Below are positions 4,139-22,502 of a stretch of DNA of 34,682 nt, one piece after another. This DNA comes from Comamonadaceae bacterium (lineage in GTDB: Bacteria; Pseudomonadota; Gammaproteobacteria; Burkholderiales; Burkholderiaceae_C). The stretch's first letter is position 1. Each line of letters opens with the position of its first letter. Made by a program: the position numbers and the translations under genes. Location of the stretch: NCBI GenBank assembly GCA_947371915.1, contig CANBRM010000016.1, positions 1-34,682 of the forward strand. The letters run 5' to 3'. The notes beneath the pieces are model-generated. The model was given only the letters and a program-made list of their open reading frames with translations, ran no database searches and had not been told where the DNA came from.

Positions 4139-5188
4139 TCACGCACCAAGTGCCATCAACGCATCCGCGTCTATACGCTGAGCTTTTTTTTCGAGCCAGC
4201 GCAAAAGCTGTGAGCGCCAGCCATTGGCTTTTCTCGAAGGCGCGCAAACCATCGTGTATTCCAAGTGCGGCACGCCGCCGCGTTTGCGCTTGAAGTCGCC
4301 TGCGCCTGAGCTGTAGTTCAACAGCAGCGCATGGGTTTGGGTGTAGTCGTGAATGGCCGAAAACAGCAGGCGGTACAAGCCGTCGATCTCGGCATCTGTG
4401 GCGTAGCCCAAGGCTGGCACGGTCAAGGTGTCGCCCACTTGGTAGAGCATGGCGAAGGCCATGATGTCGCCGTTGCTGTGCGTCAACGCCAGTGCACGCA
4501 TGACTGAGCCATTCAGCATGTCTTCAAAAAACTCAGGCGTGTACTGCGCGTTGAGTTGGCTGTGTTTGTCGAGATAAATGCGCGTGTACAACGAGGCCAT
4601 GCGCCGCGCTGTTTCTGGTGTGGCTTGCTCTAACACCACTGTGTTTAAGCCAGACCGTTTGCGTGCCGTGTGATCGCGCGCGAGGTGCGAAGGCTTGCGC
4701 GCCAATCCCTGACGCAAGTCAAACTCGTAAACCACGCGTGCGGGCAGTGCCACGAAGCCCAGGCCGCGCAGTGTTTCCATCAGGTCTTCGTGTTTGCTAG
4801 CTTGCAAATTGCGAACACCAACAAAGCAATCGGGGTTTTGGGCCACCGCGCGGTTGCACGCGTCAGATAGCTCGACACTACAGGCCGCGTCCCACACGTT
4901 GGTGGAGACGGGCCAATTGCCCACCAAGATCAAGCGGTCAAGACCCAGCCAGCGCGCACAAGTGCCCAAGCGTCGCACGCCCCAAGCCGCCCACCATGAG
5001 GTGGCTTGCAACTCTTCCGCGGCGTAGTCAAACCAGCCGCTGCGCAGTGAGGTGAGGTAGCTGGTGTCAGCCATTCCCGGTTTGCGCGACACCGTCACGG
5101 CCAACGACGACTGGCCCAGCCACTGAAGCTCTGCGCTGGCGTTGCGCATCCAGCGCTCGAGTGGCTGGCGAGGCCAAGTGGGTTGCAT
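4139..5188 (-). CDS. FemAB/GNAT-like acyl- or aminoacyltransferase coupled to btaA
   Basis: This 349-residue protein starts at ATG 5188, which overlaps the TGA of btaA as TGATG, so it is translationally coupled. The frame is open for 40 more codons upstream, but that part lies inside btaA and is not needed. The C-terminal half shows features of FemAB-like GNAT proteins (the Acetyltransf_6 type), including the NYSSGAGDFKRKRG stretch, about 50 residues from the end, and a following EYTMV strand. A predicted amphipathic segment (WWAAWGVRRLG) lies near residues 64-74. Coupling to BtaA suggests that it acts on the BtaA product or a related amine-bearing lipid, perhaps N-acylating or aminoacylating the head group. 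That is inference. It shows no SAM-binding motif, so it is not a BtaB methyltransferase. Confidence 0.8.
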   Translation of the reverse strand: MQPTWPRQPLERWMRNASAELQWLGQSSLAVTVSRKPGMADTSYLTSLRSGWFDYAAEELQATSWWAAWGVRRLGTCARWLGLDRLILVGNWPVSTNVWDAACSVELSDACNRAVAQNPDCFVGVRNLQASKHEDLMETLRGLGFVALPARVVYEFDLRQGLARKPSHLARDHTARKRSGLNTVVLEQATPETARRMASLYTRIYLDKHSQLNAQYTPEFFEDMLNGSVMRALALTHSNGDIMAFAMLYQVGDTLTVPALGYATDAEIDGLYRLLFSAIHDYTQTHALLLNYSSGAGDFKRKRGGVPHLEYTMVCAPSRKANGWRSQLLRWLEKKAQRIDADALMALGA

Positions 5189-6438
5189 CAAGCTTGCAAG
5201 CGGTACAAATGAAACGCGCCGTAAATGCCAGAGCGGTCGGTGGGGCCCAGTGTGTCGGAGGTGGCATCGTCGCGCATCCACTTGCCTTGCAAGTCGCCCG
5301 TGAAGCACACGTCCACCGGCGATGTGACGCCTGCTGTTCTGAAAATCACGCGTGCACCCGGCTTAGCAGCGCGGGTGATTTCGCGCCACAAAGCGGTGAT
5401 CTCTTCGTTGGACATCCAGTCTTGTGCATCCAGCAACACCACCGCATCCACACTCAGCATGTCCATGCGCGCAATGGCATCGCGAATGTTGCTTTGCTCA
5501 ACCGACAGCTTGTGCACATTGGCCTTGACTTGCGCGTAGTGGCTGCGCATTAAGTAGGGTGGCAAGGCGCTTTGACCTGTGGCGTCGTAGCGGCGTCCAA
5601 AAGCTTGCCAAGCAAAGTAGTTGTCTTGGATGGGCACCACAGTGGCCAAGCGACGTGCACGCTCTTTCAACACCTGCGCCATGTTGTCGGGTTGTTCATC
5701 GCACAGCGCGTTGTGCTGGCTGGGAGGAATGCCCAAGTTGTAGAGCGCAAAGGGACTGCTGCAAATTTTGGCCATCAACTTGGAGTCAAAAATTTTGGCA
5801 ACCTTGTTGTCAAACCATTTCTCTTGCGCTTGTTGGGTGGGTTGCGCCAACAACTCATCAAGCTTCACGCCGTGCAATTTGGCACCCCAGTGGATGATGC
5901 CGATCAACTGGCCTAGCAGCCCGTACTTGTAAAAGCCTTTGGCAAACATGCGAATGCGGCGAAAGCCAATGGGGCCACCTTCCCAGTAATGGCGGCTGTC
6001 GGCGTCGAGTTTGGGTGCAATCAGGGTTTTGTAGACGCGCACATTGCTAGACGCTTGAGCCACCCCAAAAAATTGGAAGAAGTCGTCGTAATGGGGCAGG
6101 GCACGCAGGCCCGCGATTTTCAGTTTGTTCAAGGAGACGTGGGCGTGGTTCAAGTCCACCGCTGTGACCTTGGCTGGGTTGGCCGTCAAATACGACAAGG
6201 CATTACAACCGCCAGAGGCGATGGTCACCACATGGTCTTCGGCACCCAAGTTCAAGGCCTGCATGTCCATGACGGGGTCTTCCCAAATTTGGGTGTAAAC
6301 CAATTGACGGAACCACATCGCAAACAAACGCTCTTTCAAGGTGGCTTTTTGTTTGTGCCCAAAAACCGCGTTGCTCAACAGCTCTTTAGAGCGGTCTGCG
6401 CTGGCACTGGGGGTGCGGAGTGTCTGTGTGAATTCCAT
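5188..6438 (-). CDS. btaA: S-adenosylmethionine:diacylglycerol 3-amino-3-carboxypropyltransferase (BtaA, DUF3419)
   Basis: BtaA moves the 3-amino-3-carboxypropyl group of SAM to diacylglycerol, giving diacylglyceryl-homoserine, the first step to the P-free betaine lipid DGTS. The 416-residue protein shows family hallmarks: YTQIWEDPVMDM (about 48-59), the SAM loop IASGGCNAL (73-81) with acidic Asp95, the HYDDFFQFFG segment, SPFALYNLGIPP, DNYFAWQAFGRRYD, VLLDAQDWM and a C-terminal SGIYGAFHLY. I chose ATG 6438 because AAGG precedes it by about 7 bases; an in-frame GTG at 6465 lacks support and lies at the presumed transcription start. A Pho box precedes it. It probably also gets read-through from tonB upstream. 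BtaB, the N-methyltransferase needed to finish DGTS, is not in the window. Confidence 0.93.
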   Translation of the reverse strand: MEFTQTLRTPSASADRSKELLSNAVFGHKQKATLKERLFAMWFRQLVYTQIWEDPVMDMQALNLGAEDHVVTIASGGCNALSYLTANPAKVTAVDLNHAHVSLNKLKIAGLRALPHYDDFFQFFGVAQASSNVRVYKTLIAPKLDADSRHYWEGGPIGFRRIRMFAKGFYKYGLLGQLIGIIHWGAKLHGVKLDELLAQPTQQAQEKWFDNKVAKIFDSKLMAKICSSPFALYNLGIPPSQHNALCDEQPDNMAQVLKERARRLATVVPIQDNYFAWQAFGRRYDATGQSALPPYLMRSHYAQVKANVHKLSVEQSNIRDAIARMDMLSVDAVVLLDAQDWMSNEEITALWREITRAAKPGARVIFRTAGVTSPVDVCFTGDLQGKWMRDDATSDTLGPTDRSGIYGAFHLYRLQA

Positions 6439-6467
6439 GTCCAACCTTGAGATGAAGTGAAGCACGA

Positions 6468-6523
6468 ATGGTGCTTGGCAGACATGAAAAAACGATGAAG
6501 GTTTGGCGTCAATTCTGTGAAGA
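6468..6523 (-). promoter_or_regulatory. Pho box and -10 for btaA
   Basis: On the minus strand CCTTCAT (6501-6495) and TTTTCAT (6490-6484) are 11 bp apart, and a further in-phase TCTTCAC lies at 6523-6517. Ten bases past the box is CACCAT (6473-6468), with A2 and T6 of a -10. It lies in the tonB-btaA gap and lets the lipid and phosphatase genes be switched on apart from the TonB system. Confidence 0.7.
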
Positions 6524-6541
6524 ATTCACGCCACCTAGATG

Positions 6542-7207
6542 TCAATAGCAAGCCACCCAGATTTGGTACACGCCATCTTTGTTTTGCAAACCGGCAGGGG
6601 GCAAAGGGTAAGAGGCGGTCTCTACCGCTTTGGTTGCGGCGCGATCAACGGCGCTCAAGCCACTGGTTTGAAGTACACGAATGGCAGACACTTTGCCGTC
6701 GTGCAAACTGAACTCCATGCGCGCACGTCCTTTGAACGACAGCGCTTTGGCGGTGCCCGGTACCTCAAACGCAGCCTGCACGGCTGCAGCCAACTTCACG
6801 TTGTAGGCCAAGGCTGGGTCGGGTAAGGCGGGTGTTGCAGGCGAGGCAGCGGCTGCTGGCGTGGAAGGTGCCGTTGTGGCTGTGGGTTCTGTTTTTGTGA
6901 CCGCTTGCACAGATGCATCGTTCGACACCGTTTGCACTTTGGGTGCAGCAGCGCTCACGGGTGGCGGGTTGGTGTTGACTTGCGGTTTTGGCGTTGGGGT
7001 GGTTTTCAGTTTAGGGGGCTCAGCCAGGGCTGGCTTTTTTTCGAGCAAGGGCGCCACAGCCATCTCTAAAGTCAGAGGTATGACCTCGCGTTCGATGGGC
7101 GTAATGTGTTGCCCAGCCCAGAGTAACGTGCCGACGATCAACAAAGACTCAAGGCCAAACGCCACGGCAAACGATTGCCAATGACGGCGGTTCAAAGTTA
7201 GGGCCAT
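6542..7207 (-). CDS. tonB: Energy transducer TonB
   Basis: This 221-residue TonB-type protein couples the inner-membrane proton gradient to an outer-membrane receptor. It has one N-terminal membrane anchor (about residues 12-31), a Pro/Lys-rich periplasm-spanning region (about 53-85), an Ala/Thr/Pro-rich linker, and a C-terminal TonB domain with the pattern KGRARMEFSLHDGKV, then SGLSAVDRAA, ending YQIWVACY. It is the fourth gene of receptor-exbB-exbD-tonB, 8 bases after exbD, so it is likely dedicated to that receptor. Confidence 0.9.
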   Translation of the reverse strand: MALTLNRRHWQSFAVAFGLESLLIVGTLLWAGQHITPIEREVIPLTLEMAVAPLLEKKPALAEPPKLKTTPTPKPQVNTNPPPVSAAAPKVQTVSNDASVQAVTKTEPTATTAPSTPAAAASPATPALPDPALAYNVKLAAAVQAAFEVPGTAKALSFKGRARMEFSLHDGKVSAIRVLQTSGLSAVDRAATKAVETASYPLPPAGLQNKDGVYQIWVACY

Positions 7208-7215
7208 ACCTCGCC

Positions 7216-7611
7216 TCAGCGCGCCACAGCGCGCGCAGCCAAACCCACTTGCGTGACACCGCTGTGCTTGACCACATCAATCACATCCATCACGCGCTGG
7301 AGGTTCGTGTCATCTGAGCCGGCAATCGTCACCGACAAAGTGGCTGTGTCCTTGCTCTGAATCAAGCGCTTGAGTTGTTCCATCGTTCTGGGTGCGCCGT
7401 CGGCTACCAAGGTGCCGCCATGTTGAATTTCAATCAGCAACTTGGGCGCTGGGATGCTCGAGGCCGAACTGCTGGTGGGCAGTTTGGAGAGCTGGCCGGA
7501 AGCCGGAATCATCCGCAGCGTCATCATGGCAAAAAACACCAGCAAGAACAGCATGATGTCGATCATGGGAATGATCTCGATGCGTGCCTTGCGCGTCTCG
7601 AAATAGCGCAT
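7216..7611 (-). CDS. exbD: Biopolymer transport protein ExbD
   Basis: This 131-residue ExbD/TolR-family protein forms the proton-driven motor with ExbB. It has a short basic N-terminus (RKARIEIIPM), one membrane helix (about 15-35) carrying the conserved proton-carrying Asp at residue 18 (MIDIMLFLLVFF), and a periplasmic C-terminal domain with the ExbD strand TLSVTIAGSDDT and helix LQRVMDVIDVVKHSGV. It starts one base after the exbB stop, indicating coupling. Confidence 0.92.
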   Translation of the reverse strand: MRYFETRKARIEIIPMIDIMLFLLVFFAMMTLRMIPASGQLSKLPTSSSASSIPAPKLLIEIQHGGTLVADGAPRTMEQLKRLIQSKDTATLSVTIAGSDDTNLQRVMDVIDVVKHSGVTQVGLAARAVAR

Positions 7612-7612
7612 G

Positions 7613-8269
7613 TCAGACTACTTTCAGTTTTGGACGCGCATGCGAGGGCGCATTGGTTCCAAAACGTCGGTTCAAAAGCATCAGTTTGAGAATGTCGAGC
7701 TGATGCACGATGGCGCGAATCTTGGTGCTGAGTCCGTTGAAAAACACCAGGCCAATCATGGCAATCAACAAACCAAAGGCCGTCGCGATCAAGGCTTCGG
7801 CGATGCCGCCGGTAACTTGAGACGCTGCGTTTTGAATGTCACCCAACACCGAGAACGCCCCAAACATACCAATGATGGTGCCAAAAAGACCCAGCAGCGG
7901 GGCCAAGGTGATGACGGTGTCGAGCATCCACAACGAGCGATCGAGCAGCGGCACTTCGCGCATCAGCGCTTCTTCCAAATGACCCGCACAGGTGTCACGC
8001 GCAGATTCTTCGGGTTCGAGCAACGAGGCTTCAAACAAGCTGATGTGGGGCAGGTCGGCATGCTTGCGCAATCCTTCCTGCATGGACACCGCTTGCAGCT
8101 CTGTACTGTCGTGCAGCAGCGCAATCAACTCGTCACCGCCTTGCTGCATTTTTGACAAAAAGAGCGTGCGCTCAATGATCACGGTCAGTGCCACCAGCAG
8201 CAGCACGCACATGATGTAGAGCGTGCCGCCCGAGTGGTTGGCCAGTTCAAATAACTTCTCAGGCGTCAT
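7613..8269 (-). CDS. exbB: MotA/TolQ/ExbB proton channel family protein
   Basis: This 218-residue ExbB-type protein has three membrane segments, near residues 17-38, 107-128 and 148-172. The family motif LAPLLGLFGTIIGMFGAF is in the second and GGIAEALIATAFGLLIAMIGLVFFN in the third. It forms the pentameric channel around ExbD that drives TonB. It sits immediately downstream of the TonB-dependent receptor (stop 8272) and overlaps closely with exbD. A complete private energising complex next to one receptor suggests that they serve the same substrate. Confidence 0.93.
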   Translation of the reverse strand: MTPEKLFELANHSGGTLYIMCVLLLVALTVIIERTLFLSKMQQGGDELIALLHDSTELQAVSMQEGLRKHADLPHISLFEASLLEPEESARDTCAGHLEEALMREVPLLDRSLWMLDTVITLAPLLGLFGTIIGMFGAFSVLGDIQNAASQVTGGIAEALIATAFGLLIAMIGLVFFNGLSTKIRAIVHQLDILKLMLLNRRFGTNAPSHARPKLKVV

Positions 8270-8271
8270 GT

Positions 8272-10581
8272 TTAAAAGTCTGCTTTCAGAGAAACCATCA
8301 TGCTGCGTGGTGCTTGGTAGATGTAGGTGTCTTGCGCCACGGTGGAGCCAGTGCTGATGGCCGTGATCTTGCCGCTGTTGGCCAAGTTAAAGACGTTGAA
8401 TTGCAGCTTCAAGTTCTTGGTTTGTGGTGTTACGTTTTTCAGGGTGTAAGCCACGCCTAAGTCCAAGTTGCCGTAGGCTGACGTCTTGTAATAGTCGTAG
8501 TAAGAGACACCTGCAATGGCTGCTTTGGTTGCGTCATAGTCCTTTTGGTGTACGACGCCTGTGCGCTTGTAAATCAATGAGCCTGACCAAGCGCCTTCGC
8601 TGTAGAGGCCACCCAATGCGGCGGTCATGCTAGGCGCACCGGAGATTTGTTCTCCTGTGTCGTTGGCTTTGGCGCTGTTAACTGAGCCGTTCAGGTACAG
8701 CGAGAAGCCGCCACCCAGCACTTGGGCCATTTGACCTTCGATGCCTTTGTAGGTTGCGCCACCGATGTTGGTGTAACGCGTGATGCCACTTTCGACCACT
8801 GAGACCAGTTTGTTGGTGAAGTCAATTTGGTAAACGTCCACGTCCCATGTCATGTCGGCTGTTTTACCAACGATGCCGAGTTGTAAGTTGGTGGACTTCT
8901 GAGGTGTGGTGCTGTTCTTGGTGGGGTCAGTGATGTAGAAGGTGTTCAGGTCAGGAATCTGAAATCCTTTGGCATATTGGGCATACACCGACATCGTGGG
9001 GTTGATTTTTTGATTCAGCGTCAAGAAAGGCAACGTTGTCTTGTAAGTCACCTCGGCTTTGTGGTTCAAGTCGCGGCTTGTGTTTTCAACGGCAGCGTCG
9101 ACCGAGCGTGTGATGTTGACGTACTTGACGCCAGGGGTGACGGTCAAGTCTTTCGTTGCGGCCCATTCAAACTCGGCAAAGGGTTGCACGGATTTGATGC
9201 TCGATTGCTGATCAAACTTCACGCTGTCGATGGGGCGATTCGTGCCAGCCAAGTTCGTTGCGTTGGCTGTTGACTCAATGCGGTTGTAGCCGCCGGTGGT
9301 CAAGTCCAAATCGTATTGGTGGCGGTCGGTCGATGAGGTTTCATACCAAACCCCCATGCGGGCGAGGCCATTTTCAAGTTGGTTCGTGGCCTTGAACATG
9401 TCACCCCACACACGGTATTTGTTTTGCTTGTCGATGCCCGGGATGTGGCCGTTGGCAGTCACCGTGCGCGTGCCATCGCTGGCCGTTTTGCGCGGATCAG
9501 ATGTCAAAGGCAATGTGCCGGTCCATGTCGGTGTTGTGGACGACATAGTTTGGTTGTCGTAGGCGTATGTGTACAACGAGTTGTCGGTGCTCCAGCCGTT
9601 GCCAAGCTCACTGCGCAAGCGAAGGTAGCTGAAGTCTGTGTCTTTTGTTGTTTTGTTGTACCCCATGTAGTTCATGCTGGTGGGGTCGTTGTTCAACTGA
9701 AAGTTGCGACCGTAGGCTGCAATTTGGGTAAGGGTTGCACCTTTGTTGCTGTCGGGTTGGTTGTAGTCGATGTGGTTGTAGGTCGAGAAAATCGTCATCA
9801 AAGACGCATCACCTACGGGGCGCTCGTACTTCAAAGCGTAGTTTTGGCTCTTCACAGGGCTGTTGCTCAGATAGCCGTCTGAAGAAAGATTTTGATAGTT
9901 CAGTTGCAGGGTGGCATCGCCCTTGTCTGCCATGCGACCTGTTTCATACGCAAAGCCGTAAAGCTGTGTGTTCCACGTACCCAACGAGGTGAACACGGAT
10001 GTTGTCTCTTCAGACATGGGCATCTTCGAGAACAAATTGATGGAGCCACCAAACGTTGCATGGCCCAAGTTGCTGGCATTGCCAGGACCGCGTTCGACCA
10101 CAGCACCGCCAATGACTGAGGCTGGGAAAAATGAGGTGGAGTGGTGAGCGGGGTTGTTGGTGTCAGCCCATGGAATGCCATCGAACGTGATGTTGTATTG
10201 GTCATCGCTGAAGCCGCGAAGTGTGGTTTTTGTTTCGCTCAAACCAGGTCCGTTGGCCGAGTCGCCCGACAAGCTGGGCGCGATGTTGACGATGCGGCTG
10301 TATTCGGCAATGGGCGAAACAGACAAGTCCATGAACTCACGCGTGATTATGGACTGTGGTTGCGTGGCTTCTAAGCTGGCTTGTGTCGGGGCCACGGCTG
10401 TGGCCGTGCCTTTCAAAGCCTCGTTGGTGCGAAAAGCACCCGCTGCGGTGCTGGCACCAATGGTGCCGAGGTCCACTGCAGCAGTTTGCGCAGCGGCCAT
10501 TTGGCTGGCCACCAAGGTCATCAGCGCCACAGAGACAAGACGTGACACGGCGTTGAATTTGAATGCAGGTTGTTTTTTCAT
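8272..10581 (-). CDS. TonB-dependent outer-membrane receptor under Pho control, substrate unknown
   Basis: This 769-residue receptor has a signal peptide (about 1-31, ending MAAAQ) and a TonB-box-like stretch, AVDLGTIGA, near the mature N-terminus. The plug domain contains the features SETKTTLRGFSDDQYNITFDGIP, VIGGAVVERGPG and FGGSINLFSK. A long beta-barrel follows, ending in the C-terminal aromatic signature SLKADF. It is not rich in the cysteines or histidines typical of heme receptors, and no siderophore genes are nearby. It is the first gene of an operon with exbB, exbD and tonB and shares its promoter region with a divergent phosphatase. Control by a strong Pho box array suggests uptake of a phosphorus compound, or of a metal cofactor for the phosphatases. 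No clear ribosome binding site is seen before the ATG at 10581. Confidence 0.92.
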   Translation of the reverse strand: MKKQPAFKFNAVSRLVSVALMTLVASQMAAAQTAAVDLGTIGASTAAGAFRTNEALKGTATAVAPTQASLEATQPQSIITREFMDLSVSPIAEYSRIVNIAPSLSGDSANGPGLSETKTTLRGFSDDQYNITFDGIPWADTNNPAHHSTSFFPASVIGGAVVERGPGNASNLGHATFGGSINLFSKMPMSEETTSVFTSLGTWNTQLYGFAYETGRMADKGDATLQLNYQNLSSDGYLSNSPVKSQNYALKYERPVGDASLMTIFSTYNHIDYNQPDSNKGATLTQIAAYGRNFQLNNDPTSMNYMGYNKTTKDTDFSYLRLRSELGNGWSTDNSLYTYAYDNQTMSSTTPTWTGTLPLTSDPRKTASDGTRTVTANGHIPGIDKQNKYRVWGDMFKATNQLENGLARMGVWYETSSTDRHQYDLDLTTGGYNRIESTANATNLAGTNRPIDSVKFDQQSSIKSVQPFAEFEWAATKDLTVTPGVKYVNITRSVDAAVENTSRDLNHKAEVTYKTTLPFLTLNQKINPTMSVYAQYAKGFQIPDLNTFYITDPTKNSTTPQKSTNLQLGIVGKTADMTWDVDVYQIDFTNKLVSVVESGITRYTNIGGATYKGIEGQMAQVLGGGFSLYLNGSVNSAKANDTGEQISGAPSMTAALGGLYSEGAWSGSLIYKRTGVVHQKDYDATKAAIAGVSYYDYYKTSAYGNLDLGVAYTLKNVTPQTKNLKLQFNVFNLANSGKITAISTGSTVAQDTYIYQAPRSMMVSLKADF

Positions 10582-10635
10582 AGGTTTGGAGTTTGAAAAA
10601 GTGAAATTGAGTGCAAGTCGATAAAACTGACATGC

Positions 10636-10691
10636 AGTATCTAAACCGCTTGTGACTGCGGCATGAAAAATTCATGAACCTTAAATGACGC
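10636..10691 (-). promoter_or_regulatory. Tandem Pho boxes and -10 for the TonB receptor operon
   Basis: Four minus-strand half-sites in 11-bp phase: GCGTCAT (10691-10685), GGTTCAT (10680-10674), TTTTCAT (10669-10663) and CAGTCAC (10658-10652). Exactly 10 bases on is GATACT (10641-10636), close to the -10 consensus. The predicted start is near 10629, leaving a leader of about 48 bases. Confidence 0.82.
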
Positions 10692-10749: not shown

Positions 10750-11742
10750 ATGCTTAAAGTCCTGAGTTTTTCTGTTTGCTTGTGCCTCTCAATGGCCGCG
10801 AGTGCCGCTGATTTTTCATTCGCTTTGTGGGGCGATATGCCCTATGGCAAAAACAAAGACGCACGTCAAACCCAAGCGGTGATCGACAGCATCAACCGCT
10901 CTGAGGTTGCGTTTTCTATCTTTGATGGGGACTTCAAAGATGGCAGCTCACGCTGTGATGACGCGGTCTATCAAAAGGCTTCTTTGATGTTTGAGGGCAT
11001 GAAGAAACCCGTCGTGTATGTCCCCGGTGACAACGAGTGGACCGATTGCCACCGCACGAACAATGGTGGCTACAACAGCCAAGAAAGGCTGTCGCTGATT
11101 CGCCGTACGTTTTTCTCGCAGCCACTGAGTCTTGGACAAGAAAAAATGCGTTTGCAAAACCAAGGGGCTTTGGGCGACAAGTTTTCAGAGAACACGCGCT
11201 TCCAAGTCGATGGTGTGGTTTTTCTGGGCTTGAATGTCCCAGGTAGCAACAACAACTCGGTGCCCGATGCGACAACATGTGCTTTTAAAAGTGTGCGCAC
11301 ACCCGCCGATTGCGAAGAGGCCAATCAAGAATTCGCAGCGCGCAGCCAAGCCAATCTGGCTTGGTTGGCCTCCGGTTTTGCCCAAGCCACGGCCAGCGCG
11401 GCGAAGGGCGTGGTGATTTTTTTTCAAGCCAATCCCGGGTTCGACCTGTCGGAAACAGAGAAGGTCGATGAAAGCCAGTTGCCTGAGTACGCGGGCTACC
11501 AATCTTTGATGGCAGCTGTGGCGCATGAGACGTCGAAATACAAAGGCCAAGTTTTGCTGGTGCACGGCGACGATCATTTTTTCAAAATGGACAAACCTTT
11601 GTACGCGCCCGGCAAGATGTTGAATAACTTCACCCGCGTGCAAACCTTTGGCAGCCCTTCCAACCATTGGGTCAAGGTGCTGGTGAACAAAGATGACCCC
11701 GAGGTCTTCACGATCAAGCCGGTGATTGTTCACCTCGATTAA
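10750..11742 (+). CDS. Secreted calcineurin-like metallophosphoesterase
   Basis: The 330-residue protein has a signal peptide (about 1-20, ending ASAA). Metallophosphoesterase motifs follow in order: WGDMPY with Asp29, SIFDGDFKDG with Asp59/Asp61, VPGDNEW with Asp94 and Asn95 (GNH-like, His replaced by Glu), and a late LLVHGDDHFF. The usual GNHD is degenerate (GDNE), so the family is a divergent one. Four or more cysteines in the mature part (RCDD, TDCH, TTCAF, ADCEE) suggest disulfides and a periplasmic home. It probably releases phosphate from an organic ester. The exact substrate is unknown. Its Pho promoter faces away from the TonB receptor, which suggests joint use: the receptor imports the substrate and this enzyme hydrolyses it. 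corA follows by 35 bases. Confidence 0.85.
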   Translation: MLKVLSFSVCLCLSMAASAADFSFALWGDMPYGKNKDARQTQAVIDSINRSEVAFSIFDGDFKDGSSRCDDAVYQKASLMFEGMKKPVVYVPGDNEWTDCHRTNNGGYNSQERLSLIRRTFFSQPLSLGQEKMRLQNQGALGDKFSENTRFQVDGVVFLGLNVPGSNNNSVPDATTCAFKSVRTPADCEEANQEFAARSQANLAWLASGFAQATASAAKGVVIFFQANPGFDLSETEKVDESQLPEYAGYQSLMAAVAHETSKYKGQVLLVHGDDHFFKMDKPLYAPGKMLNNFTRVQTFGSPSNHWVKVLVNKDDPEVFTIKPVIVHLD

Positions 11743-13862: not shown

Positions 13863-13872
13863 AAGCTTTCCT

Positions 13873-14880: not shown

Positions 14881-16673
14881 TGAGGAAAATCTGGCCTTTA
14901 GACGAAGCTTTGGCTGGCCTTGCGCTGGCCTTGATGGCGCTGATTCCGTTGATTGAAATTGTGTCTCGGCCCATGCTGGGCAAGGGCGTTGAAAACGCGC
15001 CTGTGCTTGTGCAGCACTTGGGCTTGGTGATGGCCATGTGGGGCGCTTTGGCGGCTGAGCGGCATGGGCATCTGACGAGCTTGGGGGCTGTGTTCCACGG
15101 CTTCTACTCTTGGGCGCAAGGCGCAGCATCCGTGGTGTGCGGCGTGTTGGTTTGGGCCAGTTGGCAATTGGTGGCGAGCGAGCGCGAGGGCGCGCAAACC
15201 TTGGCCTATGGCCTGCCCATGTGGTGGGTGCAATTGGCCATGCCTGTGGGCTTTGCATTATTGGGCCGTAAGTTGGCCATGCGCTCGACGCCACGTTGGG
15301 GCTGGCAGATTTTCCTTGGTGTCTTGTTACCAATGGCCGGCTTCGTTTTGGGGTGGCTGGGCGACGGCGAAGTGCTAGCGCTGTGGCCGATGCTGCTTGG
15401 TTTGGCCTTGATGCTGTTGTGTGGTGCCCCGATTTTTGCGGTGCTGGGTGGTTTGGCGCTGGCCTTGTTTTGGCAAGAAGGCTTGCCACTGGCTTCGATC
15501 GCGTTGTCGCACTACCAAATCACGGTCAATCCGTCGTTGCCTGCTTTGCCTTTGTTCACCTTGGCGGGTTTGGTTTTTGCGCGCACCGGTGCTGCGCAGC
15601 GCTTGGGTGCTGTCTTTTTGGCCATGTTTGGTCAGGGCGTGGCGGGCTCGGTGGTCGCGGCGACGGTGTTGTGTTCGGTGTTCACGGCTTTCACTGGTGG
15701 CAGCGGCGTGACGATTTTGGCGTTGGGCGGGTTGTTGCTGCCGTTGTTACGCAACGCGGGCTACCCTGAGAAAAAGGGCATCAGTTTGGTGACCAGTGCC
15801 AGTGCGTTGGGCGTTTTGTTGGCGCCCTCGGTGCCGCTCATCATGTACGCCATCATTGCGCGCGTGCCCATCAACACCATGTTTCTGGCCGGCTTGGTTC
15901 CAGCGGTGGTGATGGTGGGGTGCTTGTTGGTGTTTGGGGGCTACTTGCGCGTGTCAGCCACGGCAGCTCCTCAAAATCCATCGGTGCCTGTGTCGTCATC
16001 ATTGTCTTTGCCCACTGCTTTGTGGCGAGCGAAGTGGGAAATATTCGCCCCCGTTGTGGCGATTGGCTCTTTGGTCTCAGGCCTCGCCACACCCACAGAG
16101 AGTGCGGCTTTGACAGCTGTTTACGCGGTGCTCACACAGGCCTTTGCCCATGGTGAGTTGAGTGGTCGCTTGTTGGCGCACTGTTTGTCGACGTGTGCAC
16201 AAATCATTGGTGGCGTGATGTTGATTTTGGGCATGGCTTTGGGGCTGACCAATTTCTTGGTCGATGCGGGCATTCCCGATTTGGCGATTGACTGTGTCCA
16301 AGCCATTACCTCGAACAAGTGGGTGTTCTTGCTGGCGCTGAACGTGTTCTTGTTTTTTGCAGGTGCTTTGATGGAGATTTACGCGGCCATTGTGGTGCTG
16401 GTGCCGCTGTTGCTTCCGCTGGCCGTGAGCTACGGCATTGACCCCGTTCACTTTGGCATCATTTTCTTGGCCAACATGGAGATGGGGTTCTTGTGCCCAC
16501 CCGCGGGTATGAACATTTACTTTGCCTCTGCTGTGTTTGGCAAGAGCTTGCGTGAGGTGGCGTTGTCGGTGTTGCCCGCGTTGGTGGCCATTTTTGTGGG
16601 GACGGTGCTGATTTCGTGGCTGCCACTCGTGGCTACGGGCTTACCGGCGCTGGTGGCTGCTGGCTGGCGCTGA
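14880..16673 (+). CDS. dctQM: TRAP transporter permease, fused small (DctQ) and large (DctM) subunits
   Basis: The 597-residue membrane protein joins a four-helix DctQ part (about 1-150, with ENAPVLVQHLGLVMAMWGALAAERHGHL) to a DctM part of a dozen or so helices. DctM motifs include FTAFTGGSGVTILALGGLLLPLL, SASALGVLLAPSVPLIMYAI, TPTESAALTAVYA and MGFLCPPAGMNIYFAS. It imports the solute captured by the DctP protein using a sodium or proton gradient. ATG 14880 overlaps the dctP stop as TGATG; a GTG one codon earlier is less likely. The fusion fixes the Q:M ratio and is known in other TRAP systems. The operon ends 26 bases before the convergent olsA; I see no terminator hairpin between them. Confidence 0.92.
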   Translation: MRKIWPLDEALAGLALALMALIPLIEIVSRPMLGKGVENAPVLVQHLGLVMAMWGALAAERHGHLTSLGAVFHGFYSWAQGAASVVCGVLVWASWQLVASEREGAQTLAYGLPMWWVQLAMPVGFALLGRKLAMRSTPRWGWQIFLGVLLPMAGFVLGWLGDGEVLALWPMLLGLALMLLCGAPIFAVLGGLALALFWQEGLPLASIALSHYQITVNPSLPALPLFTLAGLVFARTGAAQRLGAVFLAMFGQGVAGSVVAATVLCSVFTAFTGGSGVTILALGGLLLPLLRNAGYPEKKGISLVTSASALGVLLAPSVPLIMYAIIARVPINTMFLAGLVPAVVMVGCLLVFGGYLRVSATAAPQNPSVPVSSSLSLPTALWRAKWEIFAPVVAIGSLVSGLATPTESAALTAVYAVLTQAFAHGELSGRLLAHCLSTCAQIIGGVMLILGMALGLTNFLVDAGIPDLAIDCVQAITSNKWVFLLALNVFLFFAGALMEIYAAIVVLVPLLLPLAVSYGIDPVHFGIIFLANMEMGFLCPPAGMNIYFASAVFGKSLREVALSVLPALVAIFVGTVLISWLPLVATGLPALVAAGWR

Positions 16674-16699
16674 ATTTGTTCACGCAGTGCTGGCGTTGA

Positions 16700-17452
16700 T
16701 TAGCTAGCGCTGAGGGCTTCTAACTGCGCTATCACGCTGCTGCGTGCCAGCAAAGCTAAGCTCTTTCTGGAGTGACCTTGTGACATCAAGCAGGGGCTTG
16801 CATGCACCGTGATGCAGATGCCATCACGCGCGCGCATCACTTGGTGGAGGGAGCTGAGAAAGCTCACATCGCCCACAAACGCGGCACGCGTGCAATGCTC
16901 GCCCGTCTGCATGTTGGTGTAGCGCAGAGCCAATGGTTGCACAGGCACGTCCTGGTGAATGGCCGACTCAAACAAGTTGGCGTGAAACATTTCAACGGTG
17001 TGGCCCAAGGTGCTGGTGCCCTCAGGGAATCCCGCCACGTTGTGGCCGCTTTCCATGGCTGCGGCAACTTGGCTCACCATTTTTCGTGTAGAGCTGGGGG
17101 AGCCTCGGTTGACAAACACCACGCCGCAGGCTTGGGCAATGGCACCCACGACCGGCCAACGCCGCACCTCTTGTTTGGCCACAAAGATGCTGGGTTGCAC
17201 CGTTTGAATGACCACGGGGTCCAGCCAAGACACATGGTTGGCCACCAACAGTTGAGGCGTGTTGGACAAAGGCGGGCGCTGAATCTGGCCCACGACGTTG
17301 ACCGTCACGCCCATGACCGCCAAAGTCTGAGCGGACCAAGTTTGGATGGCGAGGAGTTTTTCTTCACGATTGAGGCGTGGAAATTGCACCCACAAAATCC
17401 AAAAAGAGTGGATGAATGCCTGCAAGAGGCGTAGGTATTTGATGAACAACAT
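16700..17452 (-). CDS. olsA: Lyso-ornithine lipid O-acyltransferase (PlsC family)
   Basis: OlsA esterifies a second fatty acid onto the 3-hydroxyacyl-ornithine made by OlsB, completing P-free ornithine lipid at the inner membrane. The protein has the acyltransferase block NHVSWLDP (His73, Asp78 from the start chosen) and FPEGTST (142-148), with a hydrophobic N-terminal segment. A lysophosphatidate acyltransferase (PlsC) is the alternative, but divergence from olsB favours OlsA. I chose ATG 17452. The earlier ATG 17479 directly abuts the Pho box, and the predicted -10 (17464-17469) and start point (about 17457) fall inside that extension. The resulting mRNA would have only about 5 leader bases, and no Shine-Dalgarno is seen at either ATG. 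Confidence 0.88.
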   Translation of the reverse strand: MLFIKYLRLLQAFIHSFWILWVQFPRLNREEKLLAIQTWSAQTLAVMGVTVNVVGQIQRPPLSNTPQLLVANHVSWLDPVVIQTVQPSIFVAKQEVRRWPVVGAIAQACGVVFVNRGSPSSTRKMVSQVAAAMESGHNVAGFPEGTSTLGHTVEMFHANLFESAIHQDVPVQPLALRYTNMQTGEHCTRAAFVGDVSFLSSLHQVMRARDGICITVHASPCLMSQGHSRKSLALLARSSVIAQLEALSAS

Positions 17453-17463
17453 AAGCAACAAGA

Positions 17464-17497
17464 AGTTTAGGCATCGCATGTGACAAAGCGGTGAAGA
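17464..17497 (-). promoter_or_regulatory. Pho box and -10 for olsA
   Basis: On the minus strand TCTTCAC (17497-17491) and TTGTCAC (17486-17480) are 11 bp apart. TAAACT (17469-17464) follows after 10 bases with four of six -10 positions. It is back to back with the olsB array at 17508. Confidence 0.75.
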
Positions 17498-17507
17498 CGC
17501 CGCGCAT

Positions 17508-17563
17508 GTGTCATCAAAATTTCATGATTCCGTCTTGGTCTCGTCATGTGATCTTTCAAGAAT
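17508..17563 (+). promoter_or_regulatory. Tandem Pho boxes and -10 for olsB-plcP-agt
   Basis: Four half-sites in 11-bp phase: GTGTCAT (17508), ATTTCAT (17519), CCGTCTT (17530) and TCGTCAT (17541-17547). Ten bases on, AAGAAT (17558-17563) matches the -10 consensus at four of six positions. The predicted start is near 17570, about 39 bases before the olsB ATG. Confidence 0.78.
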
Positions 17564-17608
17564 TGCTGTCATTGCAAGACAAGCATCACGTCAAACAAAG
17601 GACTGACC

Positions 17609-18457
17609 ATGAAAGAATTGCCAAACCCCACCATGCCGTTATCGTTGATCGATTTCCCACGGGGGTCGCTTCATCGACACGATCATCAAACTCAAGAAAA
17701 TTTTGTCGCGCCCCAAAAAACACAAGACCGTCCAGCGCTGATTGTGGAGTGGGCCAAGCATCAAGACGAGGTGCGTGAAGCCCAGCGTTTGCGTTACGAC
17801 GTGTTTGCCACAGAGATGGGCGCACGTTTGAAAGACAGCATTCCCGGCCATGACATCGATTTGTTTGATGATTACTGTGAGCACTTGATCATTCGCGATG
17901 ATGCCACCGAGCAAGTGATTGGCACCTACCGCGTGTTGACACCGGTGCAAGCCAAACGCATTGGCAGCACCTACTCCGATTTGGAATTTGATTTGACCCG
18001 TCTGCGTGGCTACCGCGACCGCATGGTCGAGTTGGGTCGCAGCTGCGTGCATCCAGAGCATCGCCACGGTGGCGTCATCATGGCTTTGTGGGGTGCGTTG
18101 GCTGAGTTCATGGTGCGCAACAAGTTGGACGTGATGATTGGCTGTGCCAGCATTCCGATGCTCCATCAAGGCGTGATCAGTGGCGAAGTCGCTGCAAGCA
18201 TCTGGCACCAACTCAAGGGCACACATTTGGCTGACGTGTCCGACCACGTCACGCCTCGCTTGGCCTTGCCGGTGGACGAGTGGGAAGTCAACCCCGCTTT
18301 CGAGCCGCCTGCACTGATCAAAGGATATTTGCGCCTAGGCGCCAAAGTGCTGGGTGCTCCTGCGTGGGACCCAGATTTCAATACGGCTGACTTGCCTATG
18401 TTGATGAAGATTCACGACATGCCAGCGCGTTACCGCAAACACTTCTTAGGTGCTTGA
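17609..18457 (+). CDS. olsB: L-ornithine N-alpha-acyltransferase (ornithine lipid synthesis)
   Basis: OlsB transfers a 3-hydroxyacyl chain from acyl carrier protein to the alpha-amino group of ornithine, giving lyso-ornithine lipid. The 282-residue protein has the GNAT-like OlsB domain (Acetyltransf_5): EAQRLRYDVFATEMGA near 56-71, VIGTYRVL, ELGRSCVHPEHRHGGVIMALWGALAEFM and the later IGCASIPM. An N-terminal tail of about 45 polar residues precedes it. AAAGGAC, 7 bases before ATG 17609, is the ribosome binding site. It is the first gene of olsB-plcP-agt, with the stop overlapping the plcP ATG as TGATG. olsA, its pathway partner, is divergent. Confidence 0.93.
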   Translation: MKELPNPTMPLSLIDFPRGSLHRHDHQTQENFVAPQKTQDRPALIVEWAKHQDEVREAQRLRYDVFATEMGARLKDSIPGHDIDLFDDYCEHLIIRDDATEQVIGTYRVLTPVQAKRIGSTYSDLEFDLTRLRGYRDRMVELGRSCVHPEHRHGGVIMALWGALAEFMVRNKLDVMIGCASIPMLHQGVISGEVAASIWHQLKGTHLADVSDHVTPRLALPVDEWEVNPAFEPPALIKGYLRLGAKVLGAPAWDPDFNTADLPMLMKIHDMPARYRKHFLGA

Positions 18458-19227
18458 TGCATTACCGGGCGATTTTTATTTCTGATTTGCATTTGGGAAC
18501 GCCCGGATGCCAAGCCGATGCTTTGCTTGACTTCTTAAAGCTCAACACCAGCGACTACTTGTATTTGGTGGGCGACATTGTCGATGGCTGGCAATTGCGT
18601 CGCAAATGGTATTGGCCACAGGCCCACAACGATGTGGTGCAAAAGTTGTTGCGCAAAGCAAGAAAAGGCTGCCGCGTGATTTACGTGCCCGGCAACCACG
18701 ATGAGTTTGCGCGTGGGTTTTTAGACCATCAATTCGGTGGCATTGAGGTGGTGGAAGAGTCCGTACACATTACCGCAGACGGTCGCAAGTTGTGGGTCAT
18801 CCACGGTGACTACTTTGACGCCGTGGTGCAGCAAGCCAAATGGCTGGCCTATGTTGGTGACTACTTGTACGAGTTCACCCTCAAGCTCAACCGTTACCTG
18901 AACAACATGCGCGGGCGCTTGGGTTTGCCTTACTGGTCGCTTTCGGCTTACTTGAAGCACAAAGTGAAGAAGGCTTTGAACTACGTCACGGATTTTGAAA
19001 ATGCCGTGGCCCAAGAAGCGGCCAAGCATGGCTATCAAGGCGTGGTGTGCGGCCACATTCACCGCGCTGAGATTCGCGATGTGAACGGTGTGTTGTATTG
19101 CAACGATGGTGACTGGGTCGAAAGCCGAAGCGCTTTGGTCGAGCACAAAGACGGGCGCTTGGAGCTGGTGTTTTGGAACGCAGAAGCCAAAGCTGTTGAA
19201 AAACCCAAGTTGTTGAAGCTCGCATGA
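18457..19227 (+). CDS. plcP: Phospholipase C-type metallophosphoesterase PlcP
   Basis: PlcP removes phosphorylated head groups from membrane phospholipids when phosphate is scarce, leaving diacylglycerol for P-free lipids. The 256-residue protein is an LpxH-like calcineurin-fold enzyme: FISDLHLG (Asp10, His12), LVGDIVDGW (Asp40), VPGNHDEF (Asn80, His81), VIHGDYFD and VCGHIHRAE. It resembles UDP-2,3-diacylglucosamine pyrophosphatase, with which PlcP is often confused. The long insert YLYEFTLKLNRYLNNMRGRL and the neighbouring agt support PlcP. ATG 18457 overlaps the olsB stop; TTG 18454 is the alternative. Its stop overlaps the agt start as ATGA, so all three genes are probably coupled. Confidence 0.9.
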   Translation: MHYRAIFISDLHLGTPGCQADALLDFLKLNTSDYLYLVGDIVDGWQLRRKWYWPQAHNDVVQKLLRKARKGCRVIYVPGNHDEFARGFLDHQFGGIEVVEESVHITADGRKLWVIHGDYFDAVVQQAKWLAYVGDYLYEFTLKLNRYLNNMRGRLGLPYWSLSAYLKHKVKKALNYVTDFENAVAQEAAKHGYQGVVCGHIHRAEIRDVNGVLYCNDGDWVESRSALVEHKDGRLELVFWNAEAKAVEKPKLLKLA

Positions 19228-20270
19228 AGATCGCACTTATCACCGATGCGTGGCGTCCTCAAATCAACGGCGTGGTGACCACGTTGGTGGAGTTGGTCGA
19301 CCAGTTGCAGGCGCAAGGCCATGAGGTGGAGGTGGTGCATCCAGCCTTGTTTCAAACACGCCCTTGCCCAGGTTACGCAGGCATTGACTTGGCTGTTCGC
19401 CCGTATTCGCAGTTGAAAGTTCAGCTGGATGGCTTTAAGCCTGACGCGATCCACATCGCCACCGAAGGCCCGCTGGGCTGGGCGGCGCGTAAATATTGCT
19501 TAAAAAATAAATTGCCGTTCACCAGCGCATTTCACACGCGGTTTCCTGAAGTGTTGAAGGCGGCTTTGCGTGTGCCCCTGTGGCTGGGCTACGCCCTATT
19601 TCGGCACTTTCACAAACCGTCTGCAGGCGTGATGGTGCCCACACAAGGTGTGATGCGCTTGTTGGACGGCAAAGGTTTTAAGAACTTGCGCAGTTGGACA
19701 CATGGGGTGGATGTGGGCTTGTTTGAGTTCTCATCCACCGTGCAAAACCACCCCGCGCTGGATGACTTGCCACGCCCTTTGGCCTTGTATGTGGGGCGCG
19801 TGTCTTACGAAAAAAACATTGACAGTTTCTTGGCCATGCCTTGGCAGGGCAGCAAGGTGGTCTGTGGCGTGGGGCCTTTGGAGAGTTCGCTGAAGCAGCG
19901 TTTTCCAGATGTGCGCTGGCTGGGTGTGTTGCCGCGTGATGAGTTGGCCAAGGTCTACGCCAGTGCCGATGTGTTCACCTTTCCCAGCCGCAATGAAACA
20001 TTTGGCCTGGTCATGCTCGAGGCCATGGCGTGTGGCACGCCTGTGGCGGCTTATCCGGTCGATGGACCCTTAGAAGTGTTGCAAGACCATGCCGGTCATG
20101 TGCAGCAGCCACAGGGCGGTGTGCTGCACGAGGACTTGGCTTTTGCCAGCCGGGAAGCTTTGAACGTGCCGCGCCACGATGCCCGTCTTCAAGCATTGAG
20201 CTTCAGCTGGGACGAGGCCACACGCTTGTTTGAATCACATTTGGTCAAGTTGCCCGCTCGACGCGTTTGA
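19224..20270 (+). CDS. agt: Glycosyltransferase making diacylglycerol glycolipid (Agt type)
   Basis: This 348-residue GT-B (family 4) glycosyltransferase would add a sugar, such as glucose or glucuronate, to the diacylglycerol that PlcP releases, making a P-free glycolipid. Visible features are the N-terminal ALITDAWRPQINGVVTTL, the basic membrane-facing stretch PLWLGYALFRHFHKP, ALYVGRVSYEKNID at the start of the nucleotide-sugar half, and the EX7E motif with Glu258 and Glu266 (NETFGLVMLEAMACGTPVAA). plcP-agt pairs are known from marine alphaproteobacteria starved of phosphate. Here the pair is joined to olsB. The sugar donor cannot be read from the sequence. Confidence 0.9.
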   Translation: MKIALITDAWRPQINGVVTTLVELVDQLQAQGHEVEVVHPALFQTRPCPGYAGIDLAVRPYSQLKVQLDGFKPDAIHIATEGPLGWAARKYCLKNKLPFTSAFHTRFPEVLKAALRVPLWLGYALFRHFHKPSAGVMVPTQGVMRLLDGKGFKNLRSWTHGVDVGLFEFSSTVQNHPALDDLPRPLALYVGRVSYEKNIDSFLAMPWQGSKVVCGVGPLESSLKQRFPDVRWLGVLPRDELAKVYASADVFTFPSRNETFGLVMLEAMACGTPVAAYPVDGPLEVLQDHAGHVQQPQGGVLHEDLAFASREALNVPRHDARLQALSFSWDEATRLFESHLVKLPARRV

Positions 20271-20339
20271 TGGGCAGGTGTGCGGTGCCGCTCGGTAGAG
20301 GACGCGCAAAATGTGAGAAGCTCGCCAAGATGCGTTGAT

Positions 20340-20373
20340 TTGTCACAAGAATGTCACGGTGACAAGACAAACT
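20340..20373 (+). promoter_or_regulatory. Pho box and -10 for ppk
   Basis: TTGTCAC (20340-20346) and ATGTCAC (20351-20357) are 11 bp apart with spacer AAGA, very close to the consensus. CAAACT (20368-20373) follows after exactly 10 bases, as in the metallophosphatase promoter. The predicted start is near 20380, about 20 bases before the ATG. Confidence 0.82.
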
Positions 20374-20399
20374 CACGTACATTGAAACTAGGTAGCACC

Positions 20400-22502
20400 A
20401 TGACGACTTCGCCAACGCCCCACAAGACGCCCGTACCGACGGTTTCCACCGACTGGCTGGACCGCGATTTGAGTTTGTTGGCCTTCAACGCCCGTGTGTT
20501 GGATTGGGCGAAGCGCCCAGAAGTGCCGCTGTTGGAGCGGGTGCGCTACTTGTGCATCGTGTCGTCGAACTTGGATGAGTTTTTTGAGGTGCGTGCCGCG
20601 CTGTATTCCAGCCTTGAGAACCCCAAAGCTCCGCCAGATGCTGCCAGCGCCAAAGCACAACTCAATTTGAGTGATGTGGCGCATGCGTTGGTGGATGAGC
20701 AGTACGCGCTCTACAACGATGTGTTGATGCCGGCGTTTGCCAAAGAAGGCGTGCGAATTTTGTCGCACAGCGAGCGTAATTTGGCACAGCACCGCTGGGT
20801 CAAGTCATTCTTTGACCGCGAAGTGCGACCCTTGTTGTTGCCCGTTGGCCTCGACCCCGCACACCCATTTCCACAGGTGGCCAACAAGTCGCTCAACTTC
20901 ATCGTGCGTTTGTCGGGTAATGACGCGTTTGGCCGCGACAACGAGATTGCGATTGTCAAAGTGCCGCGCAGCTTGCCGCGTCTGATTCCTGTGCCAGAAA
21001 AGCTGTCTGGCAAGCGTCAGTTGTTTGTGTCCATTTCCAGCGTGATCCGTGCGCATTTGAAAGACCTGTTTCCAGGCCGTGAAGTCGGGCAGTTTTCACA
21101 GTTCCGTGTCACACGCCACTCCGATTTGGCGGTGGACGAAGAGGATGTTAAAAACCTCCGCACAGCCTTGCGTCAAGGGCTGGTGCACCGCAACTACGGC
21201 CAGGCCGTGCGCTTGGAAGTGTCGGCCGGTTGCTCAGAGCACCTGTCTGACTTTTTGTTGGAGCAGTTCGAGTTGCCACCTTCTGCGCTTTACCGCGTGC
21301 ATGGCCCCGTGAACTTGGTTCGTCTGAACCAACTGATCGATTTGGTGGACAACCCTAAGTGGTTGTTCCCGCGCTATGTGGGCAGTTTTCCGCACCAAAT
21401 CAATCCCAATAACTCTATTTTTGAACAGTTGCAGGCCGGTGATGTGCTGATCCATCAGCCGTACGAGAGTTTTGATGGCGTGCTGTCCTTTTTACGCGAT
21501 GCCGTTCGCGACCCCAATGTGTTGGCGATCAAGCAAACCATTTACCGCACAGGTGCCGATTCTGTGTTGATGGAGCTCTTGCATGAGGCCGTGCAGCGTG
21601 GCAAAGAGGTGACGGTGGTGGTGGAGTTGAAGGCTCGTTTTGACGAAGAGGCCAACATCAATTGGGCCGAAAAGCTGGAATACATCGGTGCCCAAGTGGT
21701 GTACGGCGTGGTGGGTTTGAAGACACATGCCAAGATGCTTTTGGTGTCGCGCCGCGAAGGTCGCGTGATTCGCCGTTACGCACACATGTCCACGGGCAAC
21801 TACAACCCTCGCACAGCCAAGCTTTACACCGATTTGAGTCACCTGACCTGCGACCCGAAGCTGACGCAAGACGTTGAAACTGTTTTCAATTTGTTGGCGA
21901 ATCAAAGCAAAATTCCGCGTCTCAACAAGATGCTGATTGCGCCGTTTCATCTGCAGCGCAGCCTCATCGAATGGGTGGACAAGACAGCCGCCTCAGCCGT
22001 GGCCGGTGTTGCCAGTCGCATTGTGTTGAAGATGAACACCTTGACCGACGAAAAGTTGATGGAAGCCTTGGTGCGTGCAGGACAAGCCGGCGTGCAAATT
22101 GATTTGATCGTGCGTGGTGCTTGCATGTTGCCCGCGCAGCGCGCCGGATTCACCGACAACATCCGCGTGCGTTCCATCATTGGCCAATTCTTGGAGCATT
22201 CACGGGTGTTCTACTTCGCCAGTGGTGACCAAGAGACGCTGTACCTGTCGAGCGCCGATTGGATGAACCGCAATATGCTGCGCCGCGTAGAGTTGGCATG
22301 GCCGGTGGAAGATGTCGTCTTGCGAAAACGCATCATCAACGAATGTTTGTTGGCTTATTTGCACGACAACGTGGACGCTTGGATTTTGGATGCCGATGGC
22401 CAATACAAGCGTGCACAACCGAGCAAGAGTCGCTCGGCCAAATTGAAAGAACCGCACAGCGCGCAAGCTGCGTTGAAAGCACTCTATTCAGCCAAAGTGT
22501 GA
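20400..22502 (+). CDS. ppk: Polyphosphate kinase 1
   Basis: PPK1 reversibly polymerises the terminal phosphate of ATP into polyphosphate. The 700-residue protein has the whole family layout: N-terminal LDRDLSLLAFNARVLDWA, head domain with LDEFFEVRAA, and the C-terminal catalytic domains. His443 (KTHAKM) and His462 (YAHMSTGNYNP) correspond to the E. coli catalytic pair His435 and His454, with the same 19-residue spacing. The frame is open for 40 more codons upstream, but that stretch includes the Pho box and predicted start point, so ATG 20400 with TAGGTAG before it is right. sixA follows by 10 bases. Confidence 0.96.
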   Translation: MTTSPTPHKTPVPTVSTDWLDRDLSLLAFNARVLDWAKRPEVPLLERVRYLCIVSSNLDEFFEVRAALYSSLENPKAPPDAASAKAQLNLSDVAHALVDEQYALYNDVLMPAFAKEGVRILSHSERNLAQHRWVKSFFDREVRPLLLPVGLDPAHPFPQVANKSLNFIVRLSGNDAFGRDNEIAIVKVPRSLPRLIPVPEKLSGKRQLFVSISSVIRAHLKDLFPGREVGQFSQFRVTRHSDLAVDEEDVKNLRTALRQGLVHRNYGQAVRLEVSAGCSEHLSDFLLEQFELPPSALYRVHGPVNLVRLNQLIDLVDNPKWLFPRYVGSFPHQINPNNSIFEQLQAGDVLIHQPYESFDGVLSFLRDAVRDPNVLAIKQTIYRTGADSVLMELLHEAVQRGKEVTVVVELKARFDEEANINWAEKLEYIGAQVVYGVVGLKTHAKMLLVSRREGRVIRRYAHMSTGNYNPRTAKLYTDLSHLTCDPKLTQDVETVFNLLANQSKIPRLNKMLIAPFHLQRSLIEWVDKTAASAVAGVASRIVLKMNTLTDEKLMEALVRAGQAGVQIDLIVRGACMLPAQRAGFTDNIRVRSIIGQFLEHSRVFYFASGDQETLYLSSADWMNRNMLRRVELAWPVEDVVLRKRIINECLLAYLHDNVDAWILDADGQYKRAQPSKSRSAKLKEPHSAQAALKALYSAKV

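Follow-up and report, generated by a model that had tools for sequence, protein, structure and literature searches.

In a 34,682-nucleotide stretch of DNA from a freshwater Comamonadaceae bacterium (contig CANBRM010000016.1 of assembly GCA_947371915.1; hereafter, the window), the lipid gene btaA is followed, instead of by btaB, by a gene encoding a stand-alone GNAT-fold transferase. BtaA moves the 3-amino-3-carboxypropyl group from S-adenosylmethionine to diacylglycerol, yielding diacylglyceryl-homoserine (DGHS), and BtaB is the methyltransferase that turns DGHS into the betaine lipid diacylglyceryl-trimethylhomoserine (DGTS); btaA is often taken as a marker of DGTS synthesis. The pair described here is a variant of the BtaA pathway in which the btaB partner has been replaced, and it suggests a membrane lipid not described before. 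We propose that this lipid is DGHS bearing an amino acid in amide linkage, and that BtaA makes it together with an aminoacyl-tRNA-dependent GNAT-fold enzyme that replaces BtaB in two clades; to this reading, we assign a probability of roughly 0.35. The broader statement that the amine of DGHS is capped by an amide, with either of two donors, has slightly better than even odds.

The window lies on contig C16 of a metagenome-assembled genome (MAG) of 2.74 Mb in 207 contigs, 83.5% complete, whose source organism we take to be a Limnohabitans. An earlier interpretation made from the letters of the window (the sequence-only reading) had pointed to the clustering of three phosphorus-free lipid routes and left the gene at 4139-5188, inside its interval, unnamed. 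The more unusual fact is the pair that this gene forms with btaA, rather than the clustering. Loci and genomes are referred to below by our L and G numbers, respectively.

The transferase ATG overlaps the btaA stop codon as TGATG at 5190-5186, and its open frame extends upstream to a GTG at 5308; btaA itself may start at GTG 6465 or ATG 6438. Across 25 locus entries with the pair, which include several genomes twice, the gap between the btaA stop and the transferase start ranged from -4 to +17 bp, a best case because the start codon nearest to the btaA stop was chosen. We found the transferase in 15 of 84 genomes of the genus; all 15 are among the 18 that carry btaA, with the transferase directly downstream of it, and none of the 66 genomes without btaA has the gene. 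In the order, 10 of 399 genomes carry the transferase, nine of them with btaA directly upstream. DUF3419, the BtaA family, occurs in 41 of these 399 genomes, where the next gene is btaB in 26, the transferase in 10 and neither in five (G575, G590, G494, G435, and G269, the last four being distant DUF3419 members). The 10 include G436, whose btaA-linked homologue is degenerate: its score was under the search threshold, and the conserved motif is gone. At L171:7579-8658, the homologue directly after btaA lacks the FK..RG motif and sits on a long branch, as a decaying or altered copy. In G275 (L205; C7:152658-153587), a DUF3419 gene that the search output shows with an internal TAG stop is followed by btaB.

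Of 126 btaA loci, 95 have btaB as the neighboring partner, 26 have the transferase and five have neither; none has both partners adjacent on the same strand. One source of these loci was the best 80 of 585, and thus the ratio of btaB to transferase is not a frequency in nature. In the tree of btaA, two changes between btaB and transferase suffice, as determined by a quick method, and the transferase-paired loci form two clades; the same two paired clades appear in the tree of the transferase. Members of a clade are not independent data points. The 126-row tree predates the retrieval of G590, G494, G435, G269, and G275, which lie outside it; two loci that duplicate genus genomes (L026 and L029) were removed, and the copies L001, L002, L020-L025, L027, L028, and L161-L163 were not entered. 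Within one family (f18), G413 has the transferase while G442, G499, and G554 have btaB; the BtaAs of these genomes are not sister to one another, an indication that the pair moved as a unit. Together, these data demonstrate the replacement of btaB by the transferase after btaA. The distribution and the pairing thus support a role of the transferase on the BtaA product, at the step normally performed by BtaB. Within the open-licence PMC literature, we did not find the btaA-transferase pair in print.

The product of btaA in the window is a DUF3419 protein (PF11899, E 1.9e-102), and the gene adjoining it encodes a GNAT fold. Searching the 84 genus genomes with a BtaB profile revealed no full-length BtaB-like protein among the matches listed; the best match in the genus scored 42 bits and covered only model positions 41-120, while the window's own genome reached 30 bits. 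The best match in 10 genomes of the order was 43 bits. In comparison, btaB genes beside btaA scored 72-194 bits in genomes of the order and 166-351 bits in named loci (46 genes, 14 of which were used to build the model). Because no BtaB was found, the expected product of the btaA route here is not a betaine lipid, and the label of betaine-type lipid given in the sequence-only reading has to be withdrawn. The system resembles the BtaA-BtaB pathway of Rhodobacter and Phaeobacter MED193 in its BtaA family enzyme, the proximity of plcP and the phosphate-starvation context; it differs in that a GNAT-fold transferase replaces BtaB and no trimethylation enzyme was found.

The transferase has no Pfam match over the cut-off. 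The nearest family, PF13480, matches below its cut-off and came up in 12 of 15 homologues (best E 5.1e-5). We rejected a divergent btaB because the protein matches no methyltransferase and is modeled with a GNAT fold, and an olsB paralogue because neither the window protein nor 15 members of the family matched PF13444, which the OlsB of the window does match. AlphaFold modeled the protein with a predicted local distance difference test score (pLDDT) of 89.8 and a predicted template-modeling score (pTM) of 0.89, and a second member, 30% identical to the first, with a pLDDT of 91.7. Foldseek against the PDB placed MprF/A-PGS/L-PGS and FemX on top for the window model, and Sba18, A-PGS, a DUF2156 domain, MprF, and Sbb17 for the second. 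Except for 3frm, a protein of unknown function, these leading matches are enzymes dependent on aminoacyl-tRNA or presumed relatives of such enzymes, and several act on lipids. The alignment with 6lv0 (E 1e-10; template-modeling (TM) score 0.53 by query and 0.58 by target) identified the C-terminal double-GNAT fold of DUF2156, and the match was repeated with the second model.

The FK..RG motif, in the SSGAGDFKRKRG region of the transferase and with F299-K300 as its FK pair, is kept in 29 of 30 homologues. An MprF-family protein in L174 carries FKDKFDPVWEARYLV, a setting that appears similar to the FK..RG region, and Lys305 is named as the reactive residue of FemX in a passage of a review (PMC12945691). 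Twenty-four positions are invariant across 17 divergent proteins, and 16 of 17 proteins of the family are basic, with an isoelectric point of at least 8.8. Like MprF, other aminoacyl-phosphatidylglycerol synthases and the lysyl-diacylglycerol synthase LysX, the transferase has a double-GNAT fold, an FK motif near the C terminus and a lipid context. Unlike them, it has no N-terminal membrane domain (judged by length, the double-GNAT model accounts for the whole protein of 349 aa) and no significant sequence match to them, and it would act on DGHS. With the aminoacyl-tRNA-dependent peptide synthases FemX and the FemX-like Sbb17 and Sba18, it shares the fold, and their amine acceptor would match DGHS; it differs in lacking a PF02388 match (for 15 members, the families listed down to an E of 10 did not include it) and in its lipid-synthesis neighborhood.

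We therefore envisage the following pathway. Upon phosphate starvation, PlcP would, judging from its family, strip the head group from phospholipids and release diacylglycerol. Agt would glycosylate a part of this pool, and OlsB and OlsA would independently make an ornithine-type aminolipid. From the diacylglycerol used by BtaA, DGHS would arise, and the transferase would cap its free α-amine with an amide in place of the trimethylation by BtaB. The likeliest donor would be aminoacyl-tRNA, which MprF and FemX also use, and the product would then be an aminoacyl-homoserine glycerolipid; the second choice would be acyl-coenzyme A (acyl-CoA) or acyl-acyl carrier protein (acyl-ACP), giving N-acyl-DGHS. 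The latter, a three-chain anionic lipid made in an OlsB-like manner, also falls under amide capping. It is suggested by the common use of acyl-CoA by GNAT folds, by the CoA-dependent tandem GNATs and N-myristoyltransferases among the lower Foldseek matches and by the neighboring OlsB, itself a GNAT N-acyltransferase. Nevertheless, the top fold matches of both models are mostly tRNA-dependent enzymes, and the transferase has no match to PF13444, given in a passage of one study as the domain common to known aminolipid N-acyltransferases (PMC11631085). Because of this fold ranking and the absence of PF13444, we prefer the aminoacyl donor and regard N-acyl-DGHS as unlikely.

Several observations weigh against amide capping of DGHS by the transferase. 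The TM scores are about 0.5 by query length and the identities 9-18%, and thus indicate similarity of fold rather than membership of a family. Acetyl- and acyl-CoA tandem GNATs occur lower in the same Foldseek lists. LPG_synthase_C (PF09924) did not reach its cut-off, appearing in three of 15 members with a best E of 0.085; searches of PDB sequences gave no meaningful match to the transferase, and hhalign against two single MprF-family sequences gave nothing. Moreover, all 84 genus genomes contain methyltransferases that weakly match the BtaB model. A generic methyltransferase could still act on DGHS, and the MAG is 83.5% complete. Furthermore, L030, from a Rhizobiales MAG, has plcP-agt-btaA-transferase plus a convergent, good btaB. 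These last points favor the view that DGTS is still made, by an unrecognized N-methyltransferase elsewhere, while the transferase does something else in the phosphate response. The pairing of btaA and transferase in 26 loci and the lack of a full-length BtaB-like protein among the matches listed for the 84 genomes make this quite unlikely.

In three genus genomes with btaA and neither partner (L112, L113, and L116, corresponding to G141, G180, and G163), the order is psd-btaA-dgkA (PF02666 and PF01219 for psd and dgkA; for example, L022:9056-11710), adjoining agt-plcP-olsB. The presence of psd beside btaA raises the question of whether DGHS could be decarboxylated. These genomes, together with the L171 homologue without FK..RG, would fit unmodified DGHS as the end product, with the transferase being regulatory or dispensable. 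Retention of FK..RG in the other 29 homologues and the 24 invariant positions speak against it, and we consider it very unlikely.

Four transferase homologues are not beside btaA (L134 and L176-L178), which also counts against our proposal. G459, the genome with the unlinked homologue of L134, has no DUF3419 gene, and G646, G757, and G916 combine an unlinked homologue with a normal btaA-btaB elsewhere in the genome. At L164, L179, and L180, the homologue lies near a gene for a Rieske/VanA oxygenase and another with a weak ATP-grasp match, a putative small pathway in three genomes; at L181, the three neighbors scanned included neither. A branch with 87/92 support has the unlinked homologues all on one side, closest to the second paired clade, and thus the transferase family has at least one other use.

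We also followed up the clustering itself. As the sequence-only reading had it, btaA, olsA/olsB, and plcP-agt lie within 16 kb (15.1 kb from btaA to agt), and the junctions olsB-plcP and plcP-agt are overlaps of TGATG and ATGA, respectively. OlsA and OlsB are the best NCBIfam models for 16700-17479 and 17609-18457, both under the curated equivalog cut-offs. The plcP candidate is a metallophosphoesterase gene directly 5' of the GT4 gene agt, as in the PlcP-Agt module; LpxH models match its product weakly, far below cut-off, and it shares 53-68% identity with genes close to btaA in loci from Alphaproteobacteria. Judged by these matches, the assignments of OlsA, OlsB, and PlcP hold at the family level. 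The gene families, the plcP-agt order, and the Pho-box-like sites are shared with known PlcP-Agt and OlsAB lipid-remodeling modules; unlike in those, olsB overlaps plcP-agt here and polyphosphate genes follow.

plcP is present in 68 of the 84 genus genomes. Among 20 hand-picked plcP regions (18 from genomes without btaA, two with btaA distant or on another contig), 14 have olsB-plcP-agt as a contiguous run, in one case with OlsB (55%) and Agt (43%) diverged, and ppk1-sixA-ppx or TRAP genes often accompany the block. A TRAP transporter with a TAtT component (PF16811) adjoins the ols/plcP block in many Limnohabitans genomes (L186-L196). btaA, present in 18 of the 84, was found solely in the window's own genome in a family-wide sample (120 genomes, 119 genera). 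Of the 18 genomes, 10 have btaA and plcP on the same contig about 12 kb or less apart, one has them about 76 kb apart, six have plcP on another contig, and in one, plcP was not found. Six of the 18 (the window, L109, L110, L112, L114, and L116) combine olsB (at least 70% identical), plcP, agt, and btaA. In L115, L117, and L119, the place of olsB is taken by a diverged gene of the PF13444 type, whose product is 26-29% identical to OlsB; the same holds for L118, whose contig ends before agt. At L029:12353-17596, the order is btaA, transferase, an uncharacterized gene, a diverged PF13444 acyltransferase gene, plcP, and agt; a UDP-glucose dehydrogenase gene adjoins the cluster, fitting a glucuronosyl lipid. 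A misassembly or contamination of btaA is unlikely because Limnohabitans sp. B9-3 (L020, L110), with a BtaA 95% identical to that of the window, has the ols-plcP-agt-ppk block too, with btaA and the transferase next to it.

The three-route cluster thus exists and recurs; it consists of a block usual in the genus, next to which an accessory btaA unit lies. The sequence-only reading, which had called the cluster unusual and recommended a survey of its gene order, was right about the clustering; it is not unique to the window, and the olsB-plcP-agt part is commonplace. Passages of one study already describe plcP beside btaA-btaB and plcP beside agt, and report that a plcP mutant loses DGTS (PMC4796936). 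An ordinary set of phosphate-regulated genes for ornithine lipid, glycolipid and betaine lipid, which these arrangements and the family assignments would favor, is scarcely probable given that no BtaB was found. Of the phosphatase and polyphosphate genes claimed in between, PPK1, SixA, and Ppx were confirmed, while the phosphatase-like protein at 10750-11742 matched no Pfam family although E values up to 1 were admitted. Two PhoA genes lie on one side of btaA and a TonB system on the other, and a TonB-ExbD-ExbB-receptor set also adjoins plcP-btaA-btaB in another genome of the order (L173:10900-14883).

All three routes had further been placed behind Pho boxes. With up to three mismatches, the whole window contains three matches against 2.75 expected, no excess over chance, although all three are intergenic. 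In intergenic stretches, sites that agree at 10 or more of 14 bases number nine, compared with a mean of 1.22 in shuffles, and none of 300 shuffles reached nine. The best sites are found in three places: ahead of olsB, in the gap separating the TonB receptor from the phosphatase-like gene, and in the gap between ppx and oprB. Upstream of olsB, three of the nine are mutually overlapping (17508-17547); they start at 17508, 17519, and 17530, a spacing of 11 bp. Upstream of olsB in nine relatives, the best site matched 11 of 14 bases in L110, L112, and L114 and 10 of 14 in the other six; three sites were reached by at most 3 of 200 shuffles, the other six by 36-44. btaA in the window has only a 10/14 site (6484-6501), and upstream of btaA in 17 relatives, only L109 stands out (5 of 200 shuffles reach it, against 43-158 for the others). 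Thus, the intergenic enrichment and the sites before olsB bear out the claim in part, the site of btaA being weak, and the olsB block is probably under phosphate control.

Table 1. Coordinates of features in the window and of loci with Rieske and ATP-grasp genes
Feature	Coordinates	Strand	Evidence or remark
Two PhoA-type alkaline phosphatases	922..3806	-	PF00245 twice; outside the interval of the sequence-only reading
Tandem-GNAT-fold transferase, 349 aa, Acetyltransf_6/MprF-C-like	4139..5188	-	PF13480 below cut-off, AlphaFold, Foldseek
btaA, S-adenosylmethionine:diacylglycerol 3-amino-3-carboxypropyltransferase family (DUF3419)	5188..6465	-	PF11899, E 1.9e-102
tonB, exbD, exbB, TonB-dependent receptor	6542..10581	-	Same strand as btaA
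Phosphatase-like protein	10750-11742		Named by eye only
TRAP transporter with TAtT component	13020-16673		PF16811; beside ols/plcP block
olsA-type lyso-ornithine-lipid O-acyltransferase	16700..17479	-	PF01553; NCBIfam OlsA 118 bits, cut-off 300
Divergent olsA/olsB promoter region	17480..17608		Three overlapping Pho-box-like sites
olsB-type ornithine N-acyltransferase (GNAT)	17609..18457	+	PF13444; NCBIfam OlsB 164 bits, cut-off 350
plcP-like metallophosphoesterase, LpxH-related	18457..19227	+	TGATG with olsB; well below LpxH cut-offs
agt-like GT4 glycosyltransferase	19224..20270	+	ATGA with plcP
ppk1 polyphosphate kinase	20280..22502	+	TIGR03705, 868 bits
SixA-type histidine phosphatase	22513..23013	+	PF00300
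ppx exopolyphosphatase	23555..25078	-	PF02541
Rieske/ATP-grasp loci	L164:4204-8388 (G459), L179:5329-9195, L180:4886-8748

If a different lipid arises from btaA where btaB is absent, reading btaA as a sign of DGTS synthesis is mistaken for Limnohabitans and other Burkholderiales, and an uncharacterized phosphorus-free lipid awaits discovery. Should this lipid be an aminoacyl-DGHS, it would represent a new class of bacterial membrane glycerolipid and connect the betaine-lipid pathway with the tRNA-dependent aminoacylation of lipids.

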